Of a DNA stretch of 25,016 nucleotides, positions 53-23,435 are shown piece by piece. How positions within the stretch are numbered: position 1 is the stretch's first letter; every line of letters starts with the position of its first letter. The notes under the pieces were generated by a model. It saw only the letters and a program-made list of their open reading frames with translations, was not told the origin of the DNA and did not search any database. This DNA is from a virus. The DNA lies in IMG/VR virus record IMGVR_UViG_3300034198_014533, positions 1-25,016 of that record, one strand, 5' to 3'. Made by a program: the position numbers and the translations under genes.

Positions 53-1261
53 ATGGATAATAATGTTTTTTCAAAAGAATGGTGGAGCAATGCAATAAAT
101 GAAATATTGGTTGATGAATCTTTATCTTTAAATGACTTTAGTGAAAAAGATAAGAAAATAATCCAAAATATGTATAGCATTGAAGATATACAAAGATTTT
201 TATGGATAATTAAAGGATTTAAATTAAATAGACATGAAGATGGTTTTGGAATAGCATTCAAAACCCAAACAGGAACAGCATCTCCTGAGTTGGCTGAAAA
301 GATGAATAAATGGATAAGTAAAAAATTCCCGGGAAGTGGAATAATAGTAAAATATGAACCTACATATAAAGATATTGGTTTTCTCTACAGAAAAAATATA
401 AAAGAAATACAACTAGGTCGTGAACCATCACCATATCAAGAATATATAAGAGATAATGAAGATAAAATAGAAGCCGCTGCTGCTCATTTTAATTACCCTA
501 TACCTGACCTACAATATGCTTTCTTCTTAGGTAAAGAAGTAGTATTAAGTGATGATATATGGAGTAAATTAGAAAATAGTGATTCTTATAAAACTAAATC
601 ATTAGAAGATGTTATTAAAAAAGCTAATGAACTTAAAATTAATATTAAACCATATATAGATGCTATTAAGAATGATACTGAATTACCATTTCCTTTAGTA
701 TTTAATTATATGCCTAATAAATATTATTTAGTAGGAGGTGATGTAGTATTATCTTTATATAAAGCATTAAATGTTATTCCGGTAGCGTTAATGGCTACTC
801 TAGATTTACAAGATAAAAAAGACATATCTAAAAAAGAATATGAATTAAAAGAACTTGAAGATCAAATAGAAGTAGACACAGTAAAAACCAAAGATGAACG
901 AATAGATATACTTAGTAATTTTTTAAAATTCGCTGTTAAATTCTTAAATCTATCAAATCTACCCAAAGGACTAACACTATCATACGACACTAAACAAGCC
1001 AAACATAGACATACATTCGGATACTTCAACCCCGAAAATGATAAAATATGGTTATATGTTAAAGATAGAAACACAGCTGATATATTACGTACTTTAGCAC
1101 ATGAATTAATTCATCTAAAACAAGCAGAAGAAGGTAGAATAGACCATACTAGTGGTGATACTGGTTCTCCTATTGAAAATGAAGCAAATGCTATGGCTGG
1201 TGTATTATTGAGAAATTTTGGTGTAAACCATGAAGAAATATATGAAGGATTAAACAAATAA
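53..1261 (+). CDS. HExxH metallopeptidase-like phage protein
   Basis: A 402-aa protein whose C-terminal part has the zinc-metallopeptidase signature HELIH at residues 350-354, followed by an acidic ENEANA segment (E377-x-x-A380). This gives the HExxH...ExxA layout of gluzincin/ImmA-like peptidases: two histidines and a downstream glutamate would bind zinc, and E351 would be catalytic. The N-terminal two thirds is charged, with no domain I recognise, and there is no signal peptide or membrane segment, so it should act in the cytoplasm or inside the virion. It starts 15 bases after a late-promoter-like motif and lacks the short [LI]xE tag that heads many later proteins, although an INEILVDE segment near residues 16-23 is vaguely similar. 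The substrate is unknown; a tail or head maturation role and a host-directed protease are both possible. Confidence 0.7.
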   Translation: MDNNVFSKEWWSNAINEILVDESLSLNDFSEKDKKIIQNMYSIEDIQRFLWIIKGFKLNRHEDGFGIAFKTQTGTASPELAEKMNKWISKKFPGSGIIVKYEPTYKDIGFLYRKNIKEIQLGREPSPYQEYIRDNEDKIEAAAAHFNYPIPDLQYAFFLGKEVVLSDDIWSKLENSDSYKTKSLEDVIKKANELKINIKPYIDAIKNDTELPFPLVFNYMPNKYYLVGGDVVLSLYKALNVIPVALMATLDLQDKKDISKKEYELKELEDQIEVDTVKTKDERIDILSNFLKFAVKFLNLSNLPKGLTLSYDTKQAKHRHTFGYFNPENDKIWLYVKDRNTADILRTLAHELIHLKQAEEGRIDHTSGDTGSPIENEANAMAGVLLRNFGVNHEEIYEGLNK

Positions 1262-1277: not shown

Positions 1278-1748
1278 ATGAAATATACAATATATTGCGA
1301 TCTAGATGGCGTTCTAGTCGATTTTAACAAAGGTTATTACGAGTTAACAGGTACAGATACCACAAATTATATAAAAGGAGATAATGCTTTTTGGACTCCT
1401 ATTGACAATGCAGGTCCTGAATTTTGGGCTAATCTAGATTGGATGTCCGATGGTAAAAGACTATGGCATTACATCAGAAAATATAACCCATATATATTAT
1501 CATCCCCTTCTCGTAGTGCTACATCTAAAGTAGGTAAAGCAGCATGGTGCTCAATAAATCTATTTAATCAATACAAAAAATTACTTTTATACCCTCGCCA
1601 TGAAAAACAAACATTCTCAGCACATAACCATATATTAATAGATGATTTAGAAAATACAATTAATGAATGGAATAAAAAAGGTGGTATAGGTATATTACAT
1701 ATATCAGCTGAAAATACTATTAATGAACTTAGAAAATTAGGAATATGA
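1278..1748 (+). CDS. HAD-superfamily 5'-nucleotidase-like phosphatase
   Basis: A 156-aa protein with the HAD motifs in order: motif I DLDGVL (D8 nucleophile, D10 acid/base), motif II as LSSPS around residues 74-78, a lysine-containing stretch near 84-87, and motif IV IDDLENT with D122/D123 binding Mg2+. Length and the opening YCDLDGVLVDF fit the 5'(3')-deoxyribonucleotidase (NT5C) group, which dephosphorylates (deoxy)nucleoside monophosphates; phages use such enzymes in nucleotide salvage. Substrate choice cannot be read from sequence. The gene follows the peptidase gene by 16 bases and overlaps the next start by 4 bases (ATGATGA region at 1745), suggesting one transcript. Confidence 0.8.
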   Translation: MKYTIYCDLDGVLVDFNKGYYELTGTDTTNYIKGDNAFWTPIDNAGPEFWANLDWMSDGKRLWHYIRKYNPYILSSPSRSATSKVGKAAWCSINLFNQYKKLLLYPRHEKQTFSAHNHILIDDLENTINEWNKKGGIGILHISAENTINELRKLGI

Positions 1749-2368: not shown

Positions 2369-3001
2369 ATGACTGAAGCCATAATAGTAAGTATCACAGC
2401 AATAATTACTGCCGCTCTAACAAGTGTAATAGGACCAATAGTAGTTAATTACTTTACTGAACGAAAAAAGAATAAAAAAGATCTAATTAAAGAATCATTA
2501 GAAACCAATATGTTGGTTACTAATAAATTAGAAACAATATTAAACGAACATGGCGCCGACCGTGTTTGGATATCTCAATTTCATAATGGTGGCCATTTCT
2601 ACCCAACAGGTAAATCAATACAGAAATTTAGCATGGGTTATGAAATAGTTAGCCCCGGCACAACCTCAATACAAGCCAGTTTCCAAAACATTCCTATTAG
2701 TTTATTTTCTAGATCTATGAATCATATTCTAGAAAATGATGTTATATCTATATCTGATTATAAAGATGAAAGTATAGCAACATATGGTTTAAAATATACC
2801 GCTAGTGAGATGGGTTGTAAAAGTGCATATATGTTTGCATTAAAAACAATAGATAACAAATTTATAGGTGTAGTAGGTATTGATTTTGTAAAACGTAAAA
2901 GAACATTAGATGATGAAGAAATAAATCATTTAAAAAACGAAACAGCATTAATATGTGGTGTACTAACTAATCTTCTAGAATCCAAAAAACAACATGATTA
3001 A
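2369..3001 (+). CDS. Membrane-anchored GAF-like domain protein
   Basis: A 210-aa protein. Residues about 3-28 form one hydrophobic helix (IIVSITAIITAALTSVIGPI), followed by a positively charged ERKKNKK patch, so the bulk should face the cytoplasm with the N-terminus anchored in the inner membrane. The soluble part (about 60-205) contains VWISQFHNGG, a long variable loop, and a final strand pair FIGVVGIDFV followed by a helix. This is the general layout of GAF/PAS-type ligand-sensing domains, which otherwise occur in signalling proteins. It has no kinase, cyclase or DNA-binding output domain. It sits between the zinc-finger gene and the first tagged gene, whose ATGATTAA supplies this gene's stop codon. 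Function is unknown; membrane sensing or superinfection control is speculative. Confidence 0.6.
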   Translation: MTEAIIVSITAIITAALTSVIGPIVVNYFTERKKNKKDLIKESLETNMLVTNKLETILNEHGADRVWISQFHNGGHFYPTGKSIQKFSMGYEIVSPGTTSIQASFQNIPISLFSRSMNHILENDVISISDYKDESIATYGLKYTASEMGCKSAYMFALKTIDNKFIGVVGIDFVKRKRTLDDEEINHLKNETALICGVLTNLLESKKQHD

Positions 3002-3287
3002 ACTAACAGATATACTACAAGAAATAGAAAAAGGAGTAGATGTTTTTAAAGATAACCTAGAAGACCATAGCAATATGCATTATAGAGACCATGTTAAAGC
3101 CATCATTGAGCACGCTGAAAAAGCACTAGCAACCAGTGAACCTAAAATAATGCATAGTAACATAGCAGAAATTTTAAAACATGCTGAATCCGCTCATAAT
3201 AAAATATATAATAACGGTGATACAAGTGGTGTTCATAGTGGAGGAGGTCATGTAGCTGGATTTCACGCAAATAATGCTGATTTTTAA
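2994..3287 (+). CDS. Small tagged protein (IKLTDILQE N-terminus), putative internal virion protein
   Basis: A 97-aa protein that opens with MIKLTDILQE, the first of six closely related N-termini in this window ending in [LI]xE. Residues after the tag are helical and histidine-rich (several H at about 24-70), ending in a flexible Gly/His/Asn tail (HSGGGHVAGFHANN). No known domain. The ATG overlaps the stop of the GAF-like gene (ATGATTAA), so translation is probably coupled. By analogy with T4 internal proteins the tag may direct packaging into the prohead and be removed after E10. That is inference; the tag itself is seen directly. Confidence 0.65.
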   Translation: MIKLTDILQEIEKGVDVFKDNLEDHSNMHYRDHVKAIIEHAEKALATSEPKIMHSNIAEILKHAESAHNKIYNNGDTSGVHSGGGHVAGFHANNADF

Positions 3288-3289
3288 TT

Positions 3290-3535
3290 ATGATTAAACT
3301 AACAGACATATTAACAGAAAATTATGGTGGTGAAGGTGAAATGATTTTACCTCCTAATCATAAAGCAGGTTTAAAAGTACCTAAAGGTGGCTCATGTTGT
3401 GCCAATTGCAAATGGTGGAATAAAGAAAATCAAGTATGTAATAACACATACTATGCTGATTGGGCAGGTACAAATAAAATACCTTATGCTGCTGATGAAT
3501 ATTGTACAAACTGGTGGGAACCCATATCAAAATGA
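3290..3535 (+). CDS. Small tagged Cys-rich protein resembling high-potential iron-sulfur proteins
   Basis: An 81-aa protein starting MIKLTDILTE and followed by VPKGGSCCANCKWW (C36, C37, C40), C50 and a final DEYCTNWWEP with C72. The pattern C-x2-C ... C ... C next to aromatic residues, with PYAADEYC before the last cysteine, resembles the HiPIP (4Fe-4S) fold, though spacing differs from classical HiPIPs (C-x2-C-x9-C-x21-C here). It could equally be a structural zinc protein. It starts two bases after the previous stop, and its stop overlaps the next tagged start (AATGA). An electron-transfer protein carrying a packaging-type tag would be unusual. Confidence 0.6.
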   Translation: MIKLTDILTENYGGEGEMILPPNHKAGLKVPKGGSCCANCKWWNKENQVCNNTYYADWAGTNKIPYAADEYCTNWWEPISK

Positions 3536-3888
3536 TTAGACTAACCGACATACTATTAGAAATGCTCCTAGAAGACAGATGTAAACGCATTGCCGATCGC
3601 AAATACGATAAACCATCCGCTTATAAATCAGGAGCTATTGTTAGATGTCGTAAAGGACATATTTGGAAAGACTTAAAAGAAGATGAATCATTACATAAAT
3701 GGTTCAAACGCTCAGGTACACCTGGTAAAGAAGGTGGATGGGTTGATTGCAATACTTGTAGAGACGGTAAATGTAAATCATGTGGTAGAAAAGCAGGAGA
3801 AAAACGTTCAAAATACCCTTCATGCAGACCAACACCTGCACAATGTAAACAACCAGGTAAAGGTAAAAAATGGGGAAAAACAAAATAG
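3532..3888 (+). CDS. Small tagged basic Cys-rich protein, putative internal virion protein
   Basis: I place the start at the ATG at 3532, which overlaps the previous stop as ATGA, rather than an upstream in-frame codon at 3502. From there the protein begins MIRLTDILLE, matching the tag of its two upstream neighbours. About 118 aa. After the tag come a Lys/Arg-rich region, the pair CNTC...CKSC (probable zinc knuckle) and GEKRSKYPSCRPTPAQC, ending in a very basic PGKGKKWGKTK tail. High positive charge plus zinc knuckles suggests DNA contact, fitting a protein packaged with the genome. Function unknown; the WVDCNTC and YPSCRPTPAQC segments look like a conserved phage/virus family I cannot name with certainty. 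Confidence 0.65.
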   Translation: MIRLTDILLEMLLEDRCKRIADRKYDKPSAYKSGAIVRCRKGHIWKDLKEDESLHKWFKRSGTPGKEGGWVDCNTCRDGKCKSCGRKAGEKRSKYPSCRPTPAQCKQPGKGKKWGKTK

Positions 3889-6192: not shown

Positions 6193-6570
6193 ATGATCAA
6201 ACTATCAGAACTATTAGACCCGGTGGGTAAAGAAGATGATGATATTAACAACGATGGAAAAGTAGATAAAACAGATAAGTATCTTCTTAATCGTCGCAAA
6301 ACAATATCACAAAATATAGATGAAAATATGAAATGTGATACATGTGGGGGTGAACATCCCAATGAACATCACCATGACCATGAAGCATCTATGGCTAAAG
6401 GTGAACTACGTGACATGATAAAAAACGGAGCACAATTATATAACATGATCCAACCCGAACAAAACTTACCAGGTTGGGTATCAGCATATATAACACTTGC
6501 TTCTGATTATATGCATAGTGTAGTTGAGTATATGACTGAAAAGTCTATTGAAAAAAATAACTATGAATAA
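6193..6570 (+). CDS. Tagged EF-hand/dockerin-like and His-rich protein
   Basis: A 125-aa protein starting MIKLSELLD, a variant of the IKLTDIL tag in which the cleavage glutamate is replaced by D9. A calcium-binding loop follows immediately at 17-28: D17-x-N19-x-D21-G-x-V-D25-x-x-D28, matching the EF-hand/dockerin spacing 1,3,5,9,12. Next is [17 protein letters not shown], two Cys plus a His cluster that could bind zinc or another transition metal. The rest is helical. It lies five bases after the coiled-coil gene, and its last codons contain the ATG of the next gene. The combination of two metal sites with a packaging-type tag is unusual. Confidence 0.65.
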
Positions 6571-8187: not shown

Positions 8188-8256
8188 ATGACACAATTAA
8201 TCAAAGAAGCCAAACGCTTACAAAAACTAGCTGGTATTAGCGAAATAAAAATAAAC
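8188..8256 (+). repeat. 69-nt direct repeat, copy 1 (tag-coding block)
   Basis: The first 69 bases of the gene at 8188 are identical to those of the gene at 8643-8711 and encode the shared N-terminus through ISEIKIN. Identity ends abruptly and the proteins then differ completely. Confidence 0.9.
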
Positions 8257-8625
8257 CAGCCTTCCATACTTGATAGAATACTTAAAGAATATATTCAATT
8301 TTCCAAAAATATTTCAGTCGAACATTATAGTAATGAAGAATTAAAATTTTTGGAAGATATTAGCCCTGCCACTTCTGTAGAAGATCTAGCTAAAAAAATT
8401 CAATATATAGATAATTGCCTCACAGAAATGGTAGGTGATTATCTTGGGATGTTTTTTGAGGAGGTCGTACTAAAATTCTTAATAGATGATATATTTCCTA
8501 AACTAAAAGTACCACAAAGTATTGCAAAGGAATTACTAAATACTTTAGATGAATTATATGAAAGGGGGAAAAAGAATGGTTACGAAAAAGATTCTTATGA
8601 TAGTTATTTAAAAACTTTAACATAA
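8188..8625 (+). CDS. Tagged protein (LIKEAKRLQKLAGI type), unknown body
   Basis: A 145-aa protein. The first 23 residues (MTQLIKEAKRLQKLAGI then SEIKIN) are shared exactly with the next gene and form a basic amphipathic helix with an LIKE site and a second ISE site. The body is acidic and helical (ILDRILKEYIQFSKNIS, NEELKFLEDISPATSVEDL), with no recognised domain. After the tag the text EIKINQP is nearly the same as that following a different tag in the gene at 10097. Probably one of the packaged set; body function unknown. An 18-base gap separates it from its tag-sharing neighbour. Confidence 0.65.
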   Translation: MTQLIKEAKRLQKLAGISEIKINQPSILDRILKEYIQFSKNISVEHYSNEELKFLEDISPATSVEDLAKKIQYIDNCLTEMVGDYLGMFFEEVVLKFLIDDIFPKLKVPQSIAKELLNTLDELYERGKKNGYEKDSYDSYLKTLT

Positions 8626-8642
8626 TACTTATCTAAAAAACA

Positions 8643-8711
8643 ATGACACAATTAATCAAAGAAGCCAAACGCTTACAAAAACTAGCTGGTATTAGCGAAA
8701 TAAAAATAAAC
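8643..8711 (+). repeat. 69-nt direct repeat, copy 2 (tag-coding block)
   Basis: Base-for-base the same as 8188-8256. The lack of even synonymous differences points to recent duplication or gene conversion. Confidence 0.9.
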
Positions 8712-9290
8712 AAACCATTAAATGTGCGTTTTATAGCTACTGTTCCTTATTTATATAGAGGATGGGTTAAAATAGATGGTGTTAATGTTGAGTACAGTGT
8801 AGGGGGTGATGAATTAGATATATTAATAGGATATAATCTTGATTTACTTGAAAAATATGGAGGGTATTTAAATAACGGAGATGAAAATTATTATCCGGTA
8901 GAAGAAAGTAAAAAAGCATGTGAACATATTATACATCATTTTACACCTATCCAAGGAAAAATACAACAAGATGATTACGATGTATCATACATATCTATCC
9001 CTTTTCCAGAAGTTAAAGGATACATAGAGTATGATGGACCTATATATAAAGGTAATTATACATTCGAATGGAAAGGAAAAACTATAAGATTTGAAAGAGC
9101 TCCTGAACTTGACCAACCGGGAAATTTCGGTAAATATGCTTATAACATATATGACACTAATAATAAACTAATAAAAATAATATATTCTCCTAATGAAGAT
9201 ATAAACAGCTACATGGCCTATCAAGAAGATAATTCGACAGTAGATAAAAATAGCGTAGCTTCTTTATTTAAATCATATTATAATACATGA
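8643..9290 (+). CDS. Tagged protein (LIKEAKRLQKLAGI type), beta-rich body
   Basis: A 215-aa protein. Residues 1-23 are identical to the upstream neighbour. The body is different: beta-rich with many Tyr and Gly residues (YRGWVKIDGVNVEYSVGGDE, YIEYDGPIYKGNYTFEWKG), suggesting a beta-sandwich or barrel. No family recognised, and no Cys cluster or membrane segment. The stop overlaps the next start as ATGA at 9287. The shared tag on an unrelated body is the clearest evidence in the window that the N-terminus is an exchangeable module. Confidence 0.65.
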   Translation: MTQLIKEAKRLQKLAGISEIKINKPLNVRFIATVPYLYRGWVKIDGVNVEYSVGGDELDILIGYNLDLLEKYGGYLNNGDENYYPVEESKKACEHIIHHFTPIQGKIQQDDYDVSYISIPFPEVKGYIEYDGPIYKGNYTFEWKGKTIRFERAPELDQPGNFGKYAYNIYDTNNKLIKIIYSPNEDINSYMAYQEDNSTVDKNSVASLFKSYYNT

Positions 9291-9697
9291 CCGAACTAGA
9301 TAATATTCTATATAAACTAATCGAATTCCAACACTGCCACCCAAACATATACATAGGTGGCAGCATTTCATTAATATTACAGAAAGCTATACCTTATCGC
9401 ACCCCTAAAGATGTCGATATAATATCACCGGATAAAACACACATATATGACATATTTAATATAGAATCAGAAAATAAACACCCTCTTATTAGGCAATATA
9501 GATATAATAATTTAAAATTTGAATTATTTATCAACCCTAAAGCAGAATATATAGAATATAAATATAATAATAATATATTAAAAATATCGCCTATATATGA
9601 AGTATTTGAATGGAAACATAAGAGACAAAATATTTATAATGGAAAACATGCAGTTGATATAAATTATTATGAAACCACAATTAATCAAGGAAGCTAA
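9287..9697 (+). CDS. Minimal nucleotidyltransferase-like protein
   Basis: A 136-aa protein with GGS (24-26) on a helix start, then R38-x-P-K-D42-V-D44, the hG[GS]...DxD signature of the polymerase-beta-type nucleotidyltransferase fold, and a later FELFINP strand where a third acidic residue (E or D) is normally found. Such small enzymes transfer NMPs to proteins, RNA or small molecules; toxin-antitoxin MNT/AbiE-type proteins share the fold. The partner cannot be told from sequence. There is no tag at its own start. Its last residues (ETTINQGS) are the tag-coding DNA of the next gene read in another frame. Confidence 0.65.
   Translation: MTELDNILYKLIEFQHCHPNIYIGGSISLILQKAIPYRTPKDVDIISPDKTHIYDIFNIESENKHPLIRQYRYNNLKFELFINPKAEYIEYKYNNNILKISPIYEVFEWKHKRQNIYNGKHAVDINYYETTINQGS
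9628..9640 (+). promoter_or_regulatory. Candidate late promoter motif inside the nucleotidyltransferase gene (AAATATTTATAAT)
   Basis: A recurrent-motif copy 28 bases before the tagged ATG at 9669, inside coding sequence. Support is weaker than for the intergenic copies. Confidence 0.3.
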
Positions 9698-10100
9698 ACG
9701 CTTACAAAAACTAGCTGGTATCTTAACAGAACAAGATGAAACTCCTGATCTAACACCAATAGATCCGGATCCTTCCCAAATTCAACAACAAAAATCAGAA
9801 CCTGCTGATACTCCTGAAACACCCGCTGGTGTTATAAGTAAAGATGAAGCTAAACAATTAATTAAAGCTACTAAAGGTAAATTCTTTACAGTAACTTTTA
9901 TTAAAAAAGATGGTAACCCGCGCGTAATGAATGCTAAATTAGGTGTAAAAAAATATCTAAAAGGTGGTGAACTCCCATATGATCCTGAAGAAAAAGGATT
10001 AATACCTGTATATGATATGCAAAAAGGAGCATATAGATCAGTAAATGTAAGTACTATCACTAATTTAAAAATCGGTAATAAAGAATATCAAGTACAATGA
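9669..10100 (+). CDS. Tagged protein (LIKEAKRLQKLAGI type), beta-rich body
   Basis: A 143-aa protein starting MKPQLIKEAKRLQKLAGI then LTE, with LIKE and ILTE cut sites. The coding DNA 9676-9721 differs from the 8192-8237 copy by only two bases in 46, so it belongs to the same tag family. A Pro/Glu/Asp-rich linker (about 24-55) leads to a small domain starting SKDEAKQLIKATKGKFFTVTFIKKDG, with short strands and a final NLKIGNKEYQVQ. The domain is unknown; KFFTVTFIKKDGNPRVMNAKLGVKK looks like a small beta-barrel seen in phage proteins. The start overlaps the nucleotidyltransferase gene by 29 bases, and the stop overlaps the next ATG (ATGA). Confidence 0.65.
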   Translation: MKPQLIKEAKRLQKLAGILTEQDETPDLTPIDPDPSQIQQQKSEPADTPETPAGVISKDEAKQLIKATKGKFFTVTFIKKDGNPRVMNAKLGVKKYLKGGELPYDPEEKGLIPVYDMQKGAYRSVNVSTITNLKIGNKEYQVQ

Positions 10101-10567
10101 TAAAACTAACAGACATACTAAACGAAATTAAAATAAATCAACCGGGAAAAATAGAAAATGATAAAGATTTATTCAACTTTCTAAAAGGAAATATCCGAAA
10201 ATTTGCAGAACATGAATTAACAAGCCGTGATGACGTATACAGCATAGTAATAAATGAATTTATCGAATCACCCCCTAATATATTTACAGACGATGAGTTA
10301 AATGAAATAGAAGACAATACTTGGGAAGAATTAGATAATACTCTAAAAACAAAATTAAAACCATACTTAATAGATATCCTGGTAAACATAGGATTAACAT
10401 TTTTTCAATACGACGACAATACCAACAAAATTACTAGTGCAGTTTCATGGGATACAGAAATAGGACTAATATACTCATATTCAGACGAAGCAGATCCAGG
10501 TAGTTATACGTGGGATGAAGATGAGTTTCTAGGAAAAAAATTTTATTCATTATCGTTTGACATATAA
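10097..10567 (+). CDS. Tagged protein (IKLTDILNE) with hybrid linker, unknown body
   Basis: A 156-aa protein. The first 10 residues (MIKLTDILNE) are of the IKLTDIL type, but IKINQP follows at once, the linker that elsewhere follows the LIKEAKRLQKLAGI tag (gene at 8188). The body is acidic and helical (LFNFLKGNIRKFAEHELTSRDD, DELNEIEDNTWEELDN), ending in Tyr/Asp-rich strands. In general build it resembles the 8188 protein (acidic, NEE/DEL-E segment near residue 60), so the two may be distant homologues carrying different tags. Start and previous stop overlap as ATGA. Confidence 0.6.
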   Translation: MIKLTDILNEIKINQPGKIENDKDLFNFLKGNIRKFAEHELTSRDDVYSIVINEFIESPPNIFTDDELNEIEDNTWEELDNTLKTKLKPYLIDILVNIGLTFFQYDDNTNKITSAVSWDTEIGLIYSYSDEADPGSYTWDEDEFLGKKFYSLSFDI

Positions 10568-10575
10568 TTTAAATA

Positions 10576-11403
10576 ATGATAAAACTAACAGATATATTAA
10601 CTGAATTAATATTAAAAGAAGAAGAAAAATACTATCATGGTACTTTTTATTATTTCAAATGTTTTCGCGCAGCAGGGATAGGTGGGGGGGCGGGATCTCA
10701 AATATTTGGTTGGGGGATATATTTTGGTAAAGATTTTAATGTAGCAAAATCATATTCTGCTATGAGGAAAGATATAGCAAAATCATTAACTCTTTTTCAA
10801 GGAAAAAATCCATCTGAAATGGCATTTGAATATGATAACATAGTATTCGAAAGAATCCCATCAAAATTAAAAACTAAAGAAGAACTTATTGAATATGCTA
10901 AAGAAGTAATTGAACTTCTAGAAGAAGATGGAGACCCAGAAGGGTTAATTCCTGAATATAAAAGATTTATAGAAATAATTAATGAATTAGATATAAAAAA
11001 TGAAGGGATGAGTTATGTTTATGAAGTTTTATTACATAAAGGTAAATCACCTGATCAATATGAGTATTTAGATTGGGATTTACAATCAACCCCTCAAAGT
11101 CAAGTAGATAAAATAAATAAACAAGCTCAAAAAGAAGGATGGAAAGATTTTTATGTATCTACTGAAATGAGTCCTGGAGAAATATATAAATATATAAACT
11201 CATACATTATTAACAATAAAGTCAATAAGTATAGAATAAGACAAGAACACCAAATTTCATTCCCAGCAGGAAAAGATACATCTTTATTTTTATTAGCAGC
11301 AGGAATAGATGGAAATACTCATGGTAATGGTGGTGTAAGGATAATATTTGATGAAAAAGCCATAGAAATAATTAATGTTTGTAAAATGAATTATAAAAAA
11401 TGA
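10576..11403 (+). CDS. ADP-ribosyltransferase-like protein with packaging-type tag (Alt-like)
   Basis: A 275-aa protein. It opens MIKLTDILTE, then KYYHGTFYYF (H21), then GWGIYFGKDFNVAKSYS (Y49, Y60), the HGT ... G-x-GIYF ... A-x-x-Y signature of PARP/diphtheria-toxin-type ADP-ribosyltransferases, in which H and Y hold NAD+. A long helical insertion (about 75-190) follows, and the C-terminus has LLAAGIDGNTHGNGG and IIFDEKAIEIINV, the usual final strand pair. The catalytic glutamate normally found just before the last VxFD strand is not obvious (GGVRIIFD), so activity is uncertain. T4 Alt, a capsid-packaged ADP-ribosyltransferase that modifies host RNA polymerase after injection, has the same architecture: tag plus ART. 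The stop overlaps the next ATG. Confidence 0.7.
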   Translation: MIKLTDILTELILKEEEKYYHGTFYYFKCFRAAGIGGGAGSQIFGWGIYFGKDFNVAKSYSAMRKDIAKSLTLFQGKNPSEMAFEYDNIVFERIPSKLKTKEELIEYAKEVIELLEEDGDPEGLIPEYKRFIEIINELDIKNEGMSYVYEVLLHKGKSPDQYEYLDWDLQSTPQSQVDKINKQAQKEGWKDFYVSTEMSPGEIYKYINSYIINNKVNKYRIRQEHQISFPAGKDTSLFLLAAGIDGNTHGNGGVRIIFDEKAIEIINVCKMNYKK

Positions 11404-13358
11404 TAATCAATCGCCCTCTAAAACACATATTATTAGAATACAGCGAAAAAGTCTTTAAAACCAAAATAGAGCAATGGGATAAAGAAACTAAAGGTACTGT
11501 TCAAGATGCTGAAAATACATTTAGAAATGCTATATTAAATTTTGAAAAAATCAAAGATAGAATTTTTAAAAGATTAACAGACAATGTTAATCCTCTTAGA
11601 AATATGCCCACTAAATTTATAGCAAGTGACAAAAATCCTAAACCCAAAGACCCCAGAGATATAATGAATTATACATGGAACGACATGGAAAGGTTGTTTG
11701 ATGCTTGGGGCCCTATAGAGAAAGAAAAAAAAGGTAGTGAATTCAATACGGTTGAAGATGCTCACCTACTAAAAATAAACAACGTACCTTTAACATACTC
11801 AGGAAATGGAATATTTGTTTATGAAGGATCTTCTAAAGAACATTGTATAAAATTAACTTACGCTTTTAAATATAAAGATAAAAATGAAATTAAACCATAT
11901 AATTTTTGTATAGGACGAGTAGAATCTGGTGCTAATAGATATACTAAATATAGATTTGGTGGAGAACTATCAACTGGAGCCCTATATAGATCATTTTATT
12001 TCGTAGCAGACTCAACCCAATCTCCAGGATTAAAAATGAACGACAAAGGTGCTATGGAGTTTGAAAATTGGTATCATTTTTTTGTAATACATGTTTTTGA
12101 AAATGGCCAATTTGGTGTAACTGATGCCGTTAATGTGTATGGTCACGGTCATGAAATTGATGGGAATGGAAAAGGAATAAGTTGGGAAGACATAGGAAAT
12201 TTTATGATCAAACATGGAAAAGAAAGTGGTCGACAAGCTTGGGATAAAATAAAAAACCATAAAGATATTTTTAAATATATTAGTCCTTCTGAAGAAGAAG
12301 AAGAAGAAAACATAGCTGTTGGAGGAAGATTAAATTTTGATACCTTTGAAAAACTAAACTATAATTTAAAAGCATCATATATAAACAAAAGAGCAGAAGA
12401 CCCTAATTTCTTCACCCCCCAGATGTTTAGAATGTTAAATAAAGAATTAAAAAATTTAGCTCTAAACGCCGGATACCAACCATCATTAAATGATTTGAAA
12501 GATCAAAATAATGAAATTAGCAACTCTCTAGCCAGATTATATGCTAAAAAACAATTTAGAAAAAATGTAACAAGTAGAAATGAATCAAAATATGTTACTA
12601 ATCTTATTCCTTTACCTTTTATAAAATATTTAGACGAACCAAACAAAGAAATATATTTAGAAACATTTGATGATAATCTTACATTTGATTATATAGAAAA
12701 ATATTTCGGGGAAGAAACAGCTAAAAAATACGTTAATGAACAAACTAAAAAATTAGATTATTTACCTCAATCTGCCTTTAAGTATATTAATGATCCTAAA
12801 ATAAAAAAACTATATTCTATTTATAGTAAATTATTCAAAAATTGGGTTTTTTCAAAAGATACAAATATAAGTGAAAAAGAGCTTGAACAAAAAACATCAA
12901 TGCCTTTACAACAAATTACCCCATACCCTATAATATACGATGATTGGAAAGAATTAACTACTGAGGATAAAAAAATAATTTTAGAGTTAACAAATACATC
13001 AAATTCAAACAAAAAATATTTAACTCTTAATTATGCTGTACCATTTTTTATTAAAGATGAAAATAAAACTTATGCTTTATTACCTTTAGATGAAAATAAA
13101 GAAAAATGGGTATTAGTTGACATAAATACTAATAATGTAATACTTGAATTAGATGGAGATATATCAACATTAAATGATAATTTATTAATTTATGGGTATC
13201 CTTCCTATGGTGATGGTAATTATCAAAGAATATATTCTTTATCTGATTTAAAAACAAAAGATAAACCTGTTTCTTTAAAAGAATCAATATATGATAAATT
13301 AACACATATCGATTGGGATAAACGTAGATTATTACATAGAGCCGGTATAATAAAATAA
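11400..13358 (+). CDS. Large tagged phage protein of unknown function
   Basis: A 652-aa protein, the largest complete gene here. The N-terminus (MIINRPLKHILLE then Y) again ends in an [LI]xE site. Residues about 100-275 form a region rich in aromatic residues (HCIKLTYAFKYKDK, RSFYFVADSTQSPG, ENWYHFFVIHVFENGQFGV, GHGHEIDGNGKGISWEDIG) that looks like a folded alpha/beta domain. An acidic break EEEEEEN sits near 298-304. The second half is helical, then beta-rich, ending in DKRRLLHRAGIIK, which echoes the KRLQKLAGI motif found in the N-terminal tags. No family with a known function recognised. It follows the ART-like gene with an ATGA overlap, so the two may be co-made and co-packaged. Confidence 0.65.
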   Translation: MIINRPLKHILLEYSEKVFKTKIEQWDKETKGTVQDAENTFRNAILNFEKIKDRIFKRLTDNVNPLRNMPTKFIASDKNPKPKDPRDIMNYTWNDMERLFDAWGPIEKEKKGSEFNTVEDAHLLKINNVPLTYSGNGIFVYEGSSKEHCIKLTYAFKYKDKNEIKPYNFCIGRVESGANRYTKYRFGGELSTGALYRSFYFVADSTQSPGLKMNDKGAMEFENWYHFFVIHVFENGQFGVTDAVNVYGHGHEIDGNGKGISWEDIGNFMIKHGKESGRQAWDKIKNHKDIFKYISPSEEEEEENIAVGGRLNFDTFEKLNYNLKASYINKRAEDPNFFTPQMFRMLNKELKNLALNAGYQPSLNDLKDQNNEISNSLARLYAKKQFRKNVTSRNESKYVTNLIPLPFIKYLDEPNKEIYLETFDDNLTFDYIEKYFGEETAKKYVNEQTKKLDYLPQSAFKYINDPKIKKLYSIYSKLFKNWVFSKDTNISEKELEQKTSMPLQQITPYPIIYDDWKELTTEDKKIILELTNTSNSNKKYLTLNYAVPFFIKDENKTYALLPLDENKEKWVLVDINTNNVILELDGDISTLNDNLLIYGYPSYGDGNYQRIYSLSDLKTKDKPVSLKESIYDKLTHIDWDKRRLLHRAGIIK

Positions 13359-13369
13359 AAACAAATAAT

Positions 13370-13603
13370 ATGATAAACCCAACAGACACAATAACAGTAG
13401 ACGTACCTTTATTTATACGTTTATTAGAATACGCTCGTGAAGATGCCAAAACAGACATGGATCTTCATAAAGTAACAGAAAATGTATTATCGTTAAGCCA
13501 AAATGGCAAAACATTAACCATGGATCAATATGATTCTATTATGGGAAGCGCCGAAGCTATAGACGAGATGAAAAAACTACAGCGATTAGCTAATATTGTC
13601 TAA
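13370..13603 (+). CDS. Small conserved-looking phage protein of unknown function
   Basis: A 77-aa protein with an N-terminal VDVPLFIRLLEYAREDAKTDMDLH stretch, typical of a small helical bundle, and a C-terminus MKKLQRLANIV that resembles the KRLQKLAGI segment of the type-B tags. No domain of known function. It has no N-terminal tag. It starts 11 bases after the 652-aa gene and is followed by a motif-containing gap. Confidence 0.55.
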   Translation: MINPTDTITVDVPLFIRLLEYAREDAKTDMDLHKVTENVLSLSQNGKTLTMDQYDSIMGSAEAIDEMKKLQRLANIV

Positions 13604-16733: not shown

Positions 16734-17090
16734 ATGAATATAGAGCAATTACGCGAAGCTATACGAAAAATAATCAAACAAGAATTATCTGAAAACCAAC
16801 CAGCCCCTAGTAAACCTAAACCAGGAACAGAACCTACTATACACCCTGGCAAACCTGGTGAAAAGCCAGGTCCTCGCCGCCCTCTTATCAAACCAACAAT
16901 TCAACCTAAGCCTAAAGCCGGATCTAAAACAATGAAAGAAAACGAGATGATTGATAAAATCACTGATCGTTTTAAAAAGTCTAAAATGAACGAAGCTGCT
17001 GAAACAGGATGGCAAAAAGGGTATGAAGAAGGATATAAAGAAGGATATAAAGATGCTACATCTAATAAAACTAATAAATTTAAAAAATAA
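16734..17090 (+). CDS. Tagged Pro/Lys-rich protein, putative internal virion protein
   Basis: A 118-aa protein. MNIEQLREAIRKIIKQELSE provides a basic amphipathic tag with possible sites after AIRK/KQE or ELSE. Residues about 21-70 are low complexity, rich in Pro, Lys and Gly (PSKPKPGTEPTIHPGKPGEK). The end has ENEMIDKITDRFKKSKMNEAA and a short GY-E-E repeat (KGYEEGYKEGYKD). No fold recognised. Basic and disordered, it fits a packaged DNA-contacting protein. The stop shares one base with the next ATG. Confidence 0.6.
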   Translation: MNIEQLREAIRKIIKQELSENQPAPSKPKPGTEPTIHPGKPGEKPGPRRPLIKPTIQPKPKAGSKTMKENEMIDKITDRFKKSKMNEAAETGWQKGYEEGYKEGYKDATSNKTNKFKK

Positions 17091-18103
17091 TGGCACAATT
17101 ACTAGAAGTAGACTACGAAAAAATATTCAGCCCTAAAACAATGGCTCTCCTGAAAAATAAATCAGGTGAATCTCTAAAACAAATGTTAGGTGATAAAAAT
17201 CTAAGGACTGTTATGAAACGCTCTACAGAATTATTACCTAAAATAATAGAGGCTGAAGAAGGTTATCGTGATGAATTAGAAATGATAGCAACCCAAATAG
17301 TAACAGAAGCATACCCTATTATAGATTACGCTAACATAAAAATAGATGCTAAAATAGTAAAAATGGGTGAAATAGATGTTCCTATGGGAGGAAACGATAA
17401 TGAAGAAGATCCTTTATCTCTTCAATCTAATGAAGAGTTAAAAGCCAAACGTCGTATAATAAACGGTATTTCTCAAGGAGCATCAATTAGAGGAGCATTC
17501 GCCTTCCTCATCTTCAGAGAACATTTAGACGATATTAGTCCTGAATTAATAGATAAATATAATGAAATATTAAAGCTTGCTTTTGGTATATATGATAATG
17601 AAGAGGCTATTGCTATGTTATTAGCTATGCTTGCTCAACAAAAGAAAATAGAAGGTGGTGAGAGTGATATGGAATATAATGAAGAAGATGAGCAGTTTGT
17701 AATTAAGGCTCGTGCATTGTGTTTCCCTATGTTAGTTCATGAAATAGTAAAAGGATTATATGAGATATTAGGCTCCCAAGGATTTACAACAATCCAGGGA
17801 CCTGAAGCTCAAGATGTAATTACAAAAGTAGATGTATTAACTAGTGAACCTCGTGACTTACAATATGGTAAGTTTATATATGATGCTTTAAATAAATTAT
17901 ATATAGAAAGTAATATAGATGATGCTCGTGTACGTGAATTATTCTTTACCGAAGTATATAAATTAGAGGATAATGAATTTATACCATTTATAGAAAATGC
18001 TATAAACAATAAATTAACACCTGATCAAAAGAAATGGGCTACTGATGCTATGAAGGATATAGCTAGTGATTTATCTAAAGATGATCTTCCATTTAATGTT
18101 TAA
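17090..18103 (+). CDS. Phage protein of unknown function, predicted helical
   Basis: A 337-aa, mostly helical, acidic protein. A central block (about 121-150: AKRRIINGISQGASIRGAFAFLIFREHLDDIS) and a later FPMLVHEIVKGLYEILGSQG are the most distinctive parts. No motif for an enzyme, no membrane segment and no N-terminal [LI]xE tag. Its location among head-region genes upstream of terminase and portal makes a virion structural role plausible, but I do not recognise it. It overlaps the previous stop by one base and ends just before a late-promoter-like motif. Confidence 0.6.
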   Translation: MAQLLEVDYEKIFSPKTMALLKNKSGESLKQMLGDKNLRTVMKRSTELLPKIIEAEEGYRDELEMIATQIVTEAYPIIDYANIKIDAKIVKMGEIDVPMGGNDNEEDPLSLQSNEELKAKRRIINGISQGASIRGAFAFLIFREHLDDISPELIDKYNEILKLAFGIYDNEEAIAMLLAMLAQQKKIEGGESDMEYNEEDEQFVIKARALCFPMLVHEIVKGLYEILGSQGFTTIQGPEAQDVITKVDVLTSEPRDLQYGKFIYDALNKLYIESNIDDARVRELFFTEVYKLEDNEFIPFIENAINNKLTPDQKKWATDAMKDIASDLSKDDLPFNV

Positions 18104-19955: not shown

Positions 19956-21083
19956 ATGAAAAAATCTAAACTAATTGAATTAATTAATGAGGCTTTTAAT
20001 GAAGTATTACAAGAAGATGTAACCGCTGCTGTAACTACTAAATCGGGTACAAAATTTACCAAAGTCAAAAACCCATCTGAACTAAACCCCCTAAAATCAG
20101 ACCCAAATGTTTCTAGCATCGAAACAACAGCAGGCCAGAAATTAAAAGAAACAGAACAATTAGATGAAGCTGCTAAATTTAGTATAGCTGATCAAACAAA
20201 AGCCCAAACACTAATAGACGCAATATCAGGAGCTAATAAAGAAAGAATACAAAAAATAGTAGATGCTATAAATGATTCTCCTGCAGGATCATTAACAGGT
20301 GGTAAAATAGCTGCGGCTTTAGGATTGAATTCACAAGGTCCCATATATAATCTTCTATTAAAAATGGAAGAAGCCGGTATATTATCTACAACAAATAAAA
20401 TATCTTTAAGCAAAAAAACCACACCACCACCACCAACAGCACCTACTACTCCTGGTGAAACACCTGAAGATGAAGATGATGATACAACCGAATTACCATT
20501 AAGTGGTGAAGCCGGTTTATTTCTAGGTGGTGATCAAGATTTAGAAAAGACACTTAGCCCATACTTTGGAGGAGAAGAAACACCTGAAGAAACACCCGAA
20601 GAAACATCAGTATCTACTTCAATACCATCAACACCAGCATCAAAAGCAACTGATTTCTTCCTAGACAATGAAAGATTATTCCAAAGACTAATCAATACAT
20701 ACACAGCATCTAGAATGAAAGTCAGAGAAGAAAAAACACCAGGTGATGTATCATCATCAGATATGTCTTCTGCTGAAAAATCTAGAAAAGAAAGATCAGT
20801 AGCTGGAATAGATGCTATGATAGATCAATTTATAGAAAAAATAAAAGCCGAAGATGAAGATACACAAAAATCAATCATGAATATGCTTGAAAAGAAATTA
20901 GCTAGTGTAAACGCTTCAGGTTTGTATAAAAGAATATCAAATAAAGTAGGACACACATCAGCATCGACAACAACTCCTGAGATAGTACCTGTATCTGAAG
21001 AAGATGAAGATTTTGAAGAAGAAAACAATACATTAGATGAGATAGTGTTAAATCGTTTTAGAAAAATAGCAAATATAAAATAA
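19956..21083 (+). CDS. Tagged winged-helix protein with acidic low-complexity linker
   Basis: A 375-aa protein. MKKSKLIELINEAFNEVLQE gives a basic then acidic amphipathic start with LINE|A and VLQE sites, the former followed by Ala as in T4 internal proteins. At about 80-150 lies a winged-helix-like domain (KERIQKIVDAINDSPAGSLTGG, AAALGLNSQGPIYNLLLKMEEAGILS), the second such domain in the tagged set. A long Thr/Pro/Glu/Asp linker with ETPEE repeats (about 155-225) follows, then a charged helical region and a C-terminus NRFRKIANIK recalling the KRLQKLAGI segment. Unknown function; DNA binding inside or after delivery from the capsid is the inference. It lies between the kinase gene and the spanin-like pair. 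Confidence 0.65.
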   Translation: MKKSKLIELINEAFNEVLQEDVTAAVTTKSGTKFTKVKNPSELNPLKSDPNVSSIETTAGQKLKETEQLDEAAKFSIADQTKAQTLIDAISGANKERIQKIVDAINDSPAGSLTGGKIAAALGLNSQGPIYNLLLKMEEAGILSTTNKISLSKKTTPPPPTAPTTPGETPEDEDDDTTELPLSGEAGLFLGGDQDLEKTLSPYFGGEETPEETPEETSVSTSIPSTPASKATDFFLDNERLFQRLINTYTASRMKVREEKTPGDVSSSDMSSAEKSRKERSVAGIDAMIDQFIEKIKAEDEDTQKSIMNMLEKKLASVNASGLYKRISNKVGHTSASTTTPEIVPVSEEDEDFEEENNTLDEIVLNRFRKIANIK

Positions 21084-21854: not shown

Positions 21855-23435
21855 ATGAGTGAGCATCAAAATATAAAAGATATAATTAGGAGTGAATATT
21901 TAAAATGTGCTATAGATCCTGTTTATTTTTTTAAAAAATATTGCTATATATCACACCCTAAAAGAGGCCGTATATTATTTAATTTATACCCTTTCCAAGA
22001 AGACGTTTTAAGAGCATTTAAAGAAAATAATTATTCTATAATAAATAAATCAAGACAATTAGGTATATCTACATTAGTTGCTGGTTATTCATTATGGACT
22101 ATGCTATTCAATAAAGATAAAACTATCCTATGTATAGCCACTAAACAGGTAACCGCAGCTAACATGGTTGAAAAAGTACAATTTATGTACCAAAATTTAC
22201 CATCATGGTTACGAGGCACTAAACCCGAATCTAACAATAAATTATCATTAAAATTACCAAATGGATCACAAATAGTAGCTACATCTGCATCTAGTGATGC
22301 TGGTCGTTCATACGCTGTATCGTTATTAATAATGGATGAGGCTGCTTTTATTGAAGGTATTGATAAAATATATACTTCAATTATCCCTACCTTAGCAACT
22401 GGTGGTGGATGTATTGCATTATCTTCACCTAACGGTGTTGGTAACTGGTTCCATAGAACATGGGAAGAAGCAGTAATACATAAAAATAATTTCTACCCTA
22501 TAGAATTAAAATGGAATCTACACCCAGAACGAGATGAAAAATGGGAAACATCAGAACGAGCAAATATGTCTGCTCGTGAATTTGCTCAAGAATACGATTG
22601 TGACTTTTTAGGATCGGGTAATTCATTAGTTGAAAACGAAACATTAGACTTTTATGAACAAACATATATCCAAGATCCTGTAGAACGTAGATTTATGGGA
22701 GGTGATTTTTGGATATGGCAGTATCCTGACTATAGCAGACAATACTTAATAAGCGCCGACGTTGCTCGTGGAGATGGATCTGACTACTCAACATTCCATG
22801 TTATAGATGTTGAAGCCTGTGAGCAAGTAGCAGAATATAGATCACAAATAGGAACACGTGAATTTGGACATATGCTAGTATCAGTAGCAAGTGAATATAA
22901 TAACGCATTAGTAGTAGTAGAAAATGCTAATATTGGTTGGGATGTTATAAACACTATTATTGAGAGAGGCTATAATAACATGTATTATTCACCTAAATCA
23001 TATGGTGATATGTCTATAGACAAATACTTAGCAAAAATGGAAGCTGAACAAACAGTTCCTGGTTTTACTATGAGTCAAAGAACAAGACCGCTTGTTATCT
23101 CAAAATTAGAGTCGTATATTCGAGAAAAGGCATTTGTGTTTCGTTCTAAACGTTTATTAGCTGAATTAAGAGTATTTATATGGTTGAATGGTAAAGCCCA
23201 AGCACAACAAGGATATAATGATGACTTAGTGATGGCTTTAGGAATAGGACTATTTACAAGAGATACGGCTTTAAAATTTGCTGTTCAAGGTAAAGATATA
23301 GCTAGAGCAGCATTAGATGGATTTGCAAAAACAAGTTATACATCATTATACCCTACTATGCCTAATGGCTTCGCAAACCCATATAATATACAAATAAATG
23401 GGCAAACAGAAGATATAACATGGGTGCTAGGATAA
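21855..23435 (+). CDS. Terminase large subunit (T4 gp17-like)
   Basis: A 526-aa protein, the ATP-driven DNA-packaging motor with a nuclease domain. N-terminal ATPase: Walker A SRQLGIST (66-73), Walker B LLIMDE (157-162) with E162 as the catalytic residue, and motif III ALSSP (188-192). C-terminal RNase H-like nuclease: ISADVARGDGSDYST (D302), VVVEN (E356) and YNDDLVMALG (D456/D457), the three acidic metal-binding groups. Length is slightly below T4 gp17 (610 aa). It docks on the portal encoded next. It has its own motif and follows a strong terminator. No small terminase subunit is recognisable nearby. Confidence 0.95.
   Translation: MSEHQNIKDIIRSEYLKCAIDPVYFFKKYCYISHPKRGRILFNLYPFQEDVLRAFKENNYSIINKSRQLGISTLVAGYSLWTMLFNKDKTILCIATKQVTAANMVEKVQFMYQNLPSWLRGTKPESNNKLSLKLPNGSQIVATSASSDAGRSYAVSLLIMDEAAFIEGIDKIYTSIIPTLATGGGCIALSSPNGVGNWFHRTWEEAVIHKNNFYPIELKWNLHPERDEKWETSERANMSAREFAQEYDCDFLGSGNSLVENETLDFYEQTYIQDPVERRFMGGDFWIWQYPDYSRQYLISADVARGDGSDYSTFHVIDVEACEQVAEYRSQIGTREFGHMLVSVASEYNNALVVVENANIGWDVINTIIERGYNNMYYSPKSYGDMSIDKYLAKMEAEQTVPGFTMSQRTRPLVISKLESYIREKAFVFRSKRLLAELRVFIWLNGKAQAQQGYNDDLVMALGIGLFTRDTALKFAVQGKDIARAALDGFAKTSYTSLYPTMPNGFANPYNIQINGQTEDITWVLG

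Follow-up and report, generated by a model that had tools for sequence, protein, structure and literature searches.

The genes described here probably encode cargo of the phage head that carries exchangeable capsid tags and is processed by the prohead protease, as a variant of the internal-protein system of T4. The window, i.e., the whole stretch of 25,016 bases that was analysed, is an entire IMG/VR record from a T4-like phage and contains three copies of the hexapeptide IKINxP directly after a glutamate, behind two unrelated tags (RLQKLAGIxE in the genes at 8188 and 8643, MIKLTDILNE in the gene at 10097). The hexapeptide is more than a linker: it is the start marker of cargo modules and occurs after three tag classes as well as inside predicted polyproteins. 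For gene 10097, the swap of the tag is an evolutionary fact.

The terminase large subunit (TerL, gp17 family) places the contig in a T4-like head gene cluster. By TerL, the nearest deposited records are the Flavobacterium phages immuto (54% identity), in which TerL is followed by gp20, a prohead core serine protease (Peptidase_S77, E=8.9e-35), and the Gp23 capsid protein (E=6.3e-84). Tagged proteins of immuto include MADNFNLRSFLTENKLT and ...FRRMQKLAGIITE. The window contig stops 5' of the protease gene, and the protease attributed to this phage is deduced from its relatives: homologues of the immuto S77 protease are encoded in G001, G003, G004, and G023, and homologues of the immuto Gp23 capsid protein in G003, G004, and G023. 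In three phages, KQ(I/L)VxE, which includes a conserved V-x-E, stands where the propeptide of the capsid protein is expected to end, and a conserved L-x-E is common to the proteases, close to the C-terminus; both motifs are as would be expected for gp21-like cutting and self-cutting. An unbiased set of 80 related loci was selected solely via one conserved head-cluster gene.

In T4, residues 4 and 7 of the 10-residue capsid targeting sequence of IPIII serve targeting, residues 8 and 10 direct processing, and gp21 cleaves after L/I-X-E (PMC9026906). MIKLTDILNE is likewise a short N-terminal peptide with hydrophobic residues at positions 4, 7, and 8 (L4, I7, L8), a glutamate at position 10, and an L/I-x-E end. 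In the 80 related loci, this tag A (MIKLTDILxE) is exactly 10 aa long in 94 of 100 distinct cases. Two further classes were found, namely tag B (KRMQxLAGIxE) and tag C (FNLKKFL...ENKLxxE). Tag B resembles the C-terminus of acidic scaffold-like proteins whose genes lie between those of the protease and the capsid protein (RWQKLAGIIK in immuto, RMQKLAGIKN in G003, RMQKLAGLK in G004, and RMKKLANIK in G023; acidic scaffold-like ORFs with such an end are L123:26604-27845 and its homologues in L195, L215, and L318), which suggests that tag B may borrow a scaffold contact. The tags vary between relatives on other bodies as well. Homologues of the WYL_2/phrog_2267 protein at 9669 carry a FDLKRFL tag instead of tag B (L254 and L292), and those of the HAD-like protein at 1278 carry MIKLIDLLNE (L248, L257, L258, and L260). 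Tag A is also present on a zeta-toxin-like P-loop protein (L238:551-1342) and a SET-domain protein (L234:10231-11037), which are candidate injected effectors. The window ORF at 6193-6570 resembles a tag A protein whose cut site lacks two residues compared with L259. Tag-like sequences were also observed at the C-termini of the window proteins at 11400-13358 (HRAGIIK), 13370-13603 (LQRLANIV), and 19956-21083 (RKIANIK), where they may serve for targeting or processing; in T4, Alt also undergoes processing at its C-terminus.

According to the initial annotation, different tags meet the same linker in the window, at a predicted cleavage glutamate. Translation bears this out, as the three proteins read MTQLIKEAKRLQKLAGISE-IKINQP (8188), MTQLIKEAKRLQKLAGISE-IKINKP (8643), and MIKLTDILNE-IKINQP (10097), where the hyphen marks the predicted cut; the tag ends in RLQKLAGISE in both 8188 and 8643. 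The position before the cut (P1) is the last residue of an L/I-x-E site, since P3 is L, I, or V in 90 of 100 sites against a background of 22.5% (p=8e-47), in agreement with the proposed junction at what remains a predicted cut. Over 83 sites from related records, the typical residues are L/I (P3) and E (P1), followed by I/V, K, V/I, N, K/N, and P from P1' to P6'. When distinct IKINxP-type sites were tabulated by the preceding tag, both in the relatives and in viral contigs that were scanned with patterns anchored on the cut site, 22 followed LAGI, 9 followed LTDIL, and 2 followed FNLKKFL, so the hexapeptide is not confined to one tag. Another ~70 sites, a few of them due to chance, are internal to long ORFs and have no tag. 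The description of a shared linker therefore holds as far as different tags have it in common, but falls short for the untagged sites between polyprotein modules and for a wording that differs between genomes. Neither the capsid-protein cut site nor most of the tagged proteins have the motif, so IKINxP is not required for cleavage in general. The hexapeptide is also found in an unrelated protein, as microvirus-like capsid proteins start with MSIFNEIK[IV]NKP (MSIFNEIKINKP; L008, L170, L173, L178, L179, L180, and L182).

Table 1. Tags, post-glutamate motifs, cargo bodies, and neighbouring genes in the window
Feature	Coordinates	Strand	Evidence
Metallopeptidase-like protein	53..1261	+	family match
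HAD-like protein without N-terminal tag in the window	1278..1748	+	BLAST
Tag A, MIKLTDILQE	2994..3023	+	translation
Tag A, MIKLTDILTE	3290..3319	+	translation
Tag A, MIRLTDILLE	3532..3561	+	translation
Tag B, MTQLIKEAKRLQKLAGISE, ending at the predicted cut Glu	8188..8244	+	translation; scaffold ends R[WM]QKLAGI of relatives
IKINQP motif of gene 8188	8245..8262	+	DNA pattern
Cargo body of 8188, no confident family match	8263..8625	+	family searches
Tag B of gene 8643; DNA identity to 8188 (69 nt) extends through the first four linker codons	8643..8699	+	codon comparison
IKINKP motif of gene 8643	8700..8717	+	DNA pattern
Cargo body of 8643, no family match, unrelated to 8188	8718..9290	+	family searches, comparison
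Tag B, ...RLQKLAGILTE, on WYL_2/phrog_2267 protein, without IKINxP	9669..9731	+	family matches
Tag A, MIKLTDILNE, T4-type capsid-targeting-like, ending at the predicted cut Glu	10097..10126	+	translation
IKINQP, start of the predicted mature cargo (P1'-P6')	10127..10144	+	DNA pattern, permutations
Cargo body of 10097; homologue L234+9712 with LAGI tag	10145..10567	+	body alignment
Tag A, MIKLTDILTE, on protein with weak ART-PolyVal match (E=0.0073, below Pfam cut-off)	10576..10605	+	
Stand-alone version of a G001 polyprotein module body; C-terminus ...LLHRAGIIK	11400..13358	+	sequence comparison
Small protein, C-terminus ...KLQRLANIV	13370..13603	+	translation
Conserved head-cluster protein, uninterrupted in the window	17090..18103	+	alignment and structure model
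TerL, gp17 family	21855..23435	+	profile/sequence matches

The bodies of 8188 and 10097 are non-homologous, so the window by itself presents a linker common to two tags, and only the relatives reveal that a single protein has exchanged its tag. For this comparison, everything through the glutamate was removed before the bodies were aligned. The body of 10097 (MIKLTDILNE) then matched that of L234+9712 (QRMQQLAGIKE) at 44% over 154 aa (E=2.5e-30), with the alignment beginning at residue 1 after the glutamate in both proteins. Further families with differing tags also align from residue 1 (L190+2261/L192+15275, L234+6349/L192+15685, and L131+2628/L190+7108), and near-identical alignment starts were obtained for L259+735/L287+4214 and for window 9669/L292+12966. 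With four families in which different tags precede bodies that align from the first residue after E, the proposal that the tag is exchangeable exactly up to the cut site is upheld.

The same junction separates modules that are joined in long proteins. In a relative with a gene content like that of the window (L062, record G001), eight (L/M)xE-I(K/Q)(I/V)(N/K)KP sites are present in one protein of 1,615 aa; a 1,795-aa protein in G004 has up to 16 sites that lie 80-172 aa apart, and several more polyproteins are predicted in G003 and G005. Modules of these chains also occur as separate proteins. The G001 module at 1109 matches the stand-alone L127 protein (KRLQQLAGINE tag) from the cut onward (E=1e-16), as does the module at 199 with L207-9674 (RMQELAGLTE tag, E=5e-8). 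The body at 11400 is a separate gene in the window, an internal module in G001, and stands behind MIRLANIFKE in L250 (read by eye). Similarly, the homologue of 13370 in L062 runs on through SLNE into another body, and the metallopeptidase-like body at 53 is a polyprotein module in G003 or is fused to the HAD-like body of the adjacent gene in L282, where the two form one protein (HAD by BLAST, upstream part by eye).

Clustering by BLAST divided 87 modules into 58 families, so that unrelated mature bodies, as known for T4 internal proteins, are found here too, though a distant fold common to the modules may lie beyond such clustering. Most modules match no family. In G003, a 974-aa ORF contains cytidylyltransferase-like and DUF5661 domains (Pfam) and modules resembling ART and the window metallopeptidase; no peptidase match was found in the G001 and G004 polyproteins. 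When 50,697 records of deposited phages were searched with tblastn, the G004 polyprotein and window 10097 gave no match, and the G001 polyprotein gave one partial, marginal match. Some polyproteins start with MNE-IKINKP and carry no known tag with which they would reach the head, which speaks against their being cargo.

Modules have also entered a conserved head-cluster protein. In an alignment of the homologues of 17090, the IKINxP modules of relatives are found at three places, namely in two loops and at the C-terminus, and directly follow LxE. At the first loop, the modules of G003, G005, and G011 follow directly after LDE and end in another LxE, after which the conserved sequence resumes; G001 reads SLDETLTPEG there, without insert. 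The second loop is uninterrupted in G011 (IINE-QQSGIT) and reads IINE-VKINNP... or IINE-IKVKQP... in G003 and G005, and at the C-terminus further modules follow after tag C (G001) or tag B (G009). An earlier AlphaFold model of 17090 with 5 sequences was poor (pLDDT 54.7) and was redone with 56 sequences (mean pLDDT 83.9); in the new model, the insertion points are located in loops, low-confidence or turn regions. The fold had no match in the PDB and one uncharacterised viral structural match (A0A6J5Q1V8). The predicted cuts at the inserts would split a conserved head-cluster protein at two loops, which is a point against the cargo model. Inteins or mobile-DNA inserts were rejected as an explanation, as the inserts start with IKINxP, have no Cys/Ser start or HN end, and have unrelated bodies. 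A separate observation is the ORF from 1991 in L203 (G005), where TerL is interrupted by an intein-like insert of ~380 aa (CFSGDTIVY... to ...YGIVHN-C) that is unlike the IKINxP inserts.

The wording after the cut depends on the genome. Favoured words are VKVNNP in G003, IKVNKP/IQINKP in G001, and IKV(N/K)xP with A, T, or S at P5' in G004, and the residues at P1', P2', and P5' depend on the genome (permutation p<0.001, a test that is weakened if modules within one genome are related). L234 (G009) has I(T/K)(I/V)N(K/N)P behind both tags, and in G023 (174 kb) and G024 A(R/K)(I/V)xP is found behind tag A, tag B, another N-terminal helix, and at internal sites. Related modules seem able to differ in wording between genomes, as suggested by a first module that reads IKINKP in G001, VKIQTP in L250, and ARIVP in G023 (alignments 26-30% identical). 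It is conceivable, albeit doubtful at present, that a cognate factor of the phage recognises each genome's own post-cut word (IKINxP, AR[IV]VP, or I[TK][IV]NKP), which would label a mobile class of cargo. If true, a module with the word after L/I-x-E would join the head cargo singly behind whichever tag, in a polyprotein, or within a head-cluster protein, which would amount to a modular, genome-specific cargo code in T4-like phages.

From these sequence comparisons, the following pathway can be proposed. The genes would encode cargo for loading into the phage prohead, where a short helical tag of class A, B, or C would bind the scaffolding core. A gp21-type serine protease of the phage would then cleave after the Glu of L/I-x-E, and the mature protein would remain in the head to be ejected together with the DNA. 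Tags would be freely swapped exactly up to the cut because all that precedes the glutamate is discarded and any tag that reaches the core suffices. As everything before the glutamate is disposable, cargo could likewise be gained, lost, split, and fused at L/I-x-E, which would have given rise to polyproteins of up to ~16 modules and to modules within the head-cluster protein. The hexapeptide (IK[IV]NxP, AR[IV]VP, or I[TK][IV]NKP, depending on the phage) would mark the start of a mobile cargo class; its probable role is that of a signal on the mature N-terminus or of a component of a longer protease site that keeps the junction accessible. Once ejected, the cargo may act on host defence or host enzymes, for which the ART-PolyVal, zeta-toxin-like, and SET-domain bodies behind tag A are weak hints.

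Other explanations of the hexapeptide were considered. The chance recurrence of a short AT-rich sequence is barely credible. Although an unrestricted scan of viral contigs for EIKINxP returned, among the matches listed, mostly unrelated chance ones, including the microvirus capsid proteins, the degenerate DNA pattern for EIKINxP (exact matches at 8242, 8697, and 10124, all on the + strand) had a mean and a maximum of 0 in 100 dinucleotide shuffles. Moreover, the ORFs of related records contain E[IV]K[IV]N.P 66 times, and 2,519 permutations of the motif elements average 0.1 (two permutations scoring 44 and 21 only overlap the real motif), and in the unbiased 80 loci the general motif was found 60 times against 0 on the opposite strand. 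The shuffles and permuted motifs refute chance for the tagged and polyprotein sets. It is also unlikely that tag and hexapeptide were copied as one DNA cassette, in which case the shared hexapeptide would be a functionless by-product of recent duplication. Such a copy does account for 8188 and 8643, which are identical over 23 codons (69 nt, tag and linker) and have unrelated bodies, and in G001 (0.80 vs 0.67) and G003 (0.83 vs 0.70) codon identity at the sites slightly exceeds what codon usage predicts. However, 10097 has just three of seven linker codons in common with 8188 (4.6 expected from codon usage), so these two match at the protein level and not through a recent DNA copy. Codon identity equals the expectation in G023 (0.519 vs 0.519) and nearly so in G005 (0.685 vs 0.654), the motif is present at untagged internal sites, and homologous modules are worded differently across genomes. 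As sole cause, recent DNA copying is ruled out by the codon comparison.

A further possibility, to which we give tentative credit, is that the hexapeptide belongs to the recognition site of the protease, with a prime side of gp21 that has diverged per phage and weak-tag modules that need the hexapeptide to be cut. This is a sub-case of the prohead-protease reading given at the outset and differs from it in the role of the hexapeptide. The strict coupling to L/I-x-E, the occurrence at internal sites, and the genome dependence of P1', P2', and P5' (in modules that may be paralogous) are in its favour, but the cut sites of the capsid proteins read ANVT, NSTT, and SNTT, and most tagged proteins do without the motif, so the same protease must accept other sequences. 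It is rather improbable that E-IKINxP stays uncut and serves, as an extended strand, to link the domains of large multidomain structural proteins or to dock these domains on the inner shell. Alternating hydrophobic residues followed by proline would suit such a strand, and modules are found within loops of a conserved protein; yet Glu at P1 with L/I/V at P3 corresponds to the specificity of T4 gp21, and equivalent bodies are encoded by genes of their own in some cases and joined to others at LxE in further ones.

T4 already provides examples of unrelated internal proteins that have a leader in common (PMC3012670, PMC12373910). The T4 internal proteins IPI, IPII, IPIII, and Alt, with gp21, resemble the genes described here in the 10-residue N-terminal tag ending in L/I-x-E, the S77 protease (seen here in relatives of the window), the unrelated mature bodies behind a shared leader, the T4-like head cluster, and the Alt-like ADP-ribosyltransferase candidate. 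Unlike in T4, there are several unrelated tag classes in one phage with swaps on the same body, a genome-specific hexapeptide after the cut, and cargo in polyproteins and inside a head-cluster protein. Polyvalent proteins of phages and conjugative elements are multi-domain, injected proteins whose release is attributed to embedded peptidases (Iyer et al. 2017, PMC5512222). They too unite dissimilar domains in a single chain, metallopeptidase-like and ART-like ones among them (resemblances of this kind come from G003 in the present set), and are thought to enter the host with the DNA. Here, in contrast to the proposed embedded-peptidase release, the repeated L/I-x-E junction would fit a prohead protease acting in trans, and a conserved word stands at the start of each module. 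In phiKZ and SPN3US, inner head proteins destined for ejection are cut C-terminal to a Glu motif, some of them repeatedly, but the propeptides are mostly long and discarded, and several functional cargo modules per chain are not described in the passages of these sources that were consulted (PMC5694885, PMC10052503). In the Dar system of P1, an N-terminal targeting sequence of DarB sends an anti-restriction protein into the head (PMC9024508), but there is neither a leader common to the Dar proteins nor a polyprotein with repeated cut words. No precedent for phage polyproteins cut by the head protease was found in the open-access journal literature searched, nor were same-body tag exchange and genome-specific post-cut words.

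In this group of uncultured T4-like phages, the loading of a phage head with polyproteins by means of a repeated predicted cut signal would apparently be a new mode. The lack of sequence similarity between their bodies makes injected phage proteins difficult to detect, and the rule of L/I-x-E followed by a hexapeptide provides a simple finder for them, which should bring to light many candidate proteins of T4-like phages for anti-defence and host takeover. The tags and junctions are also suggested for packing several proteins together into phage heads.
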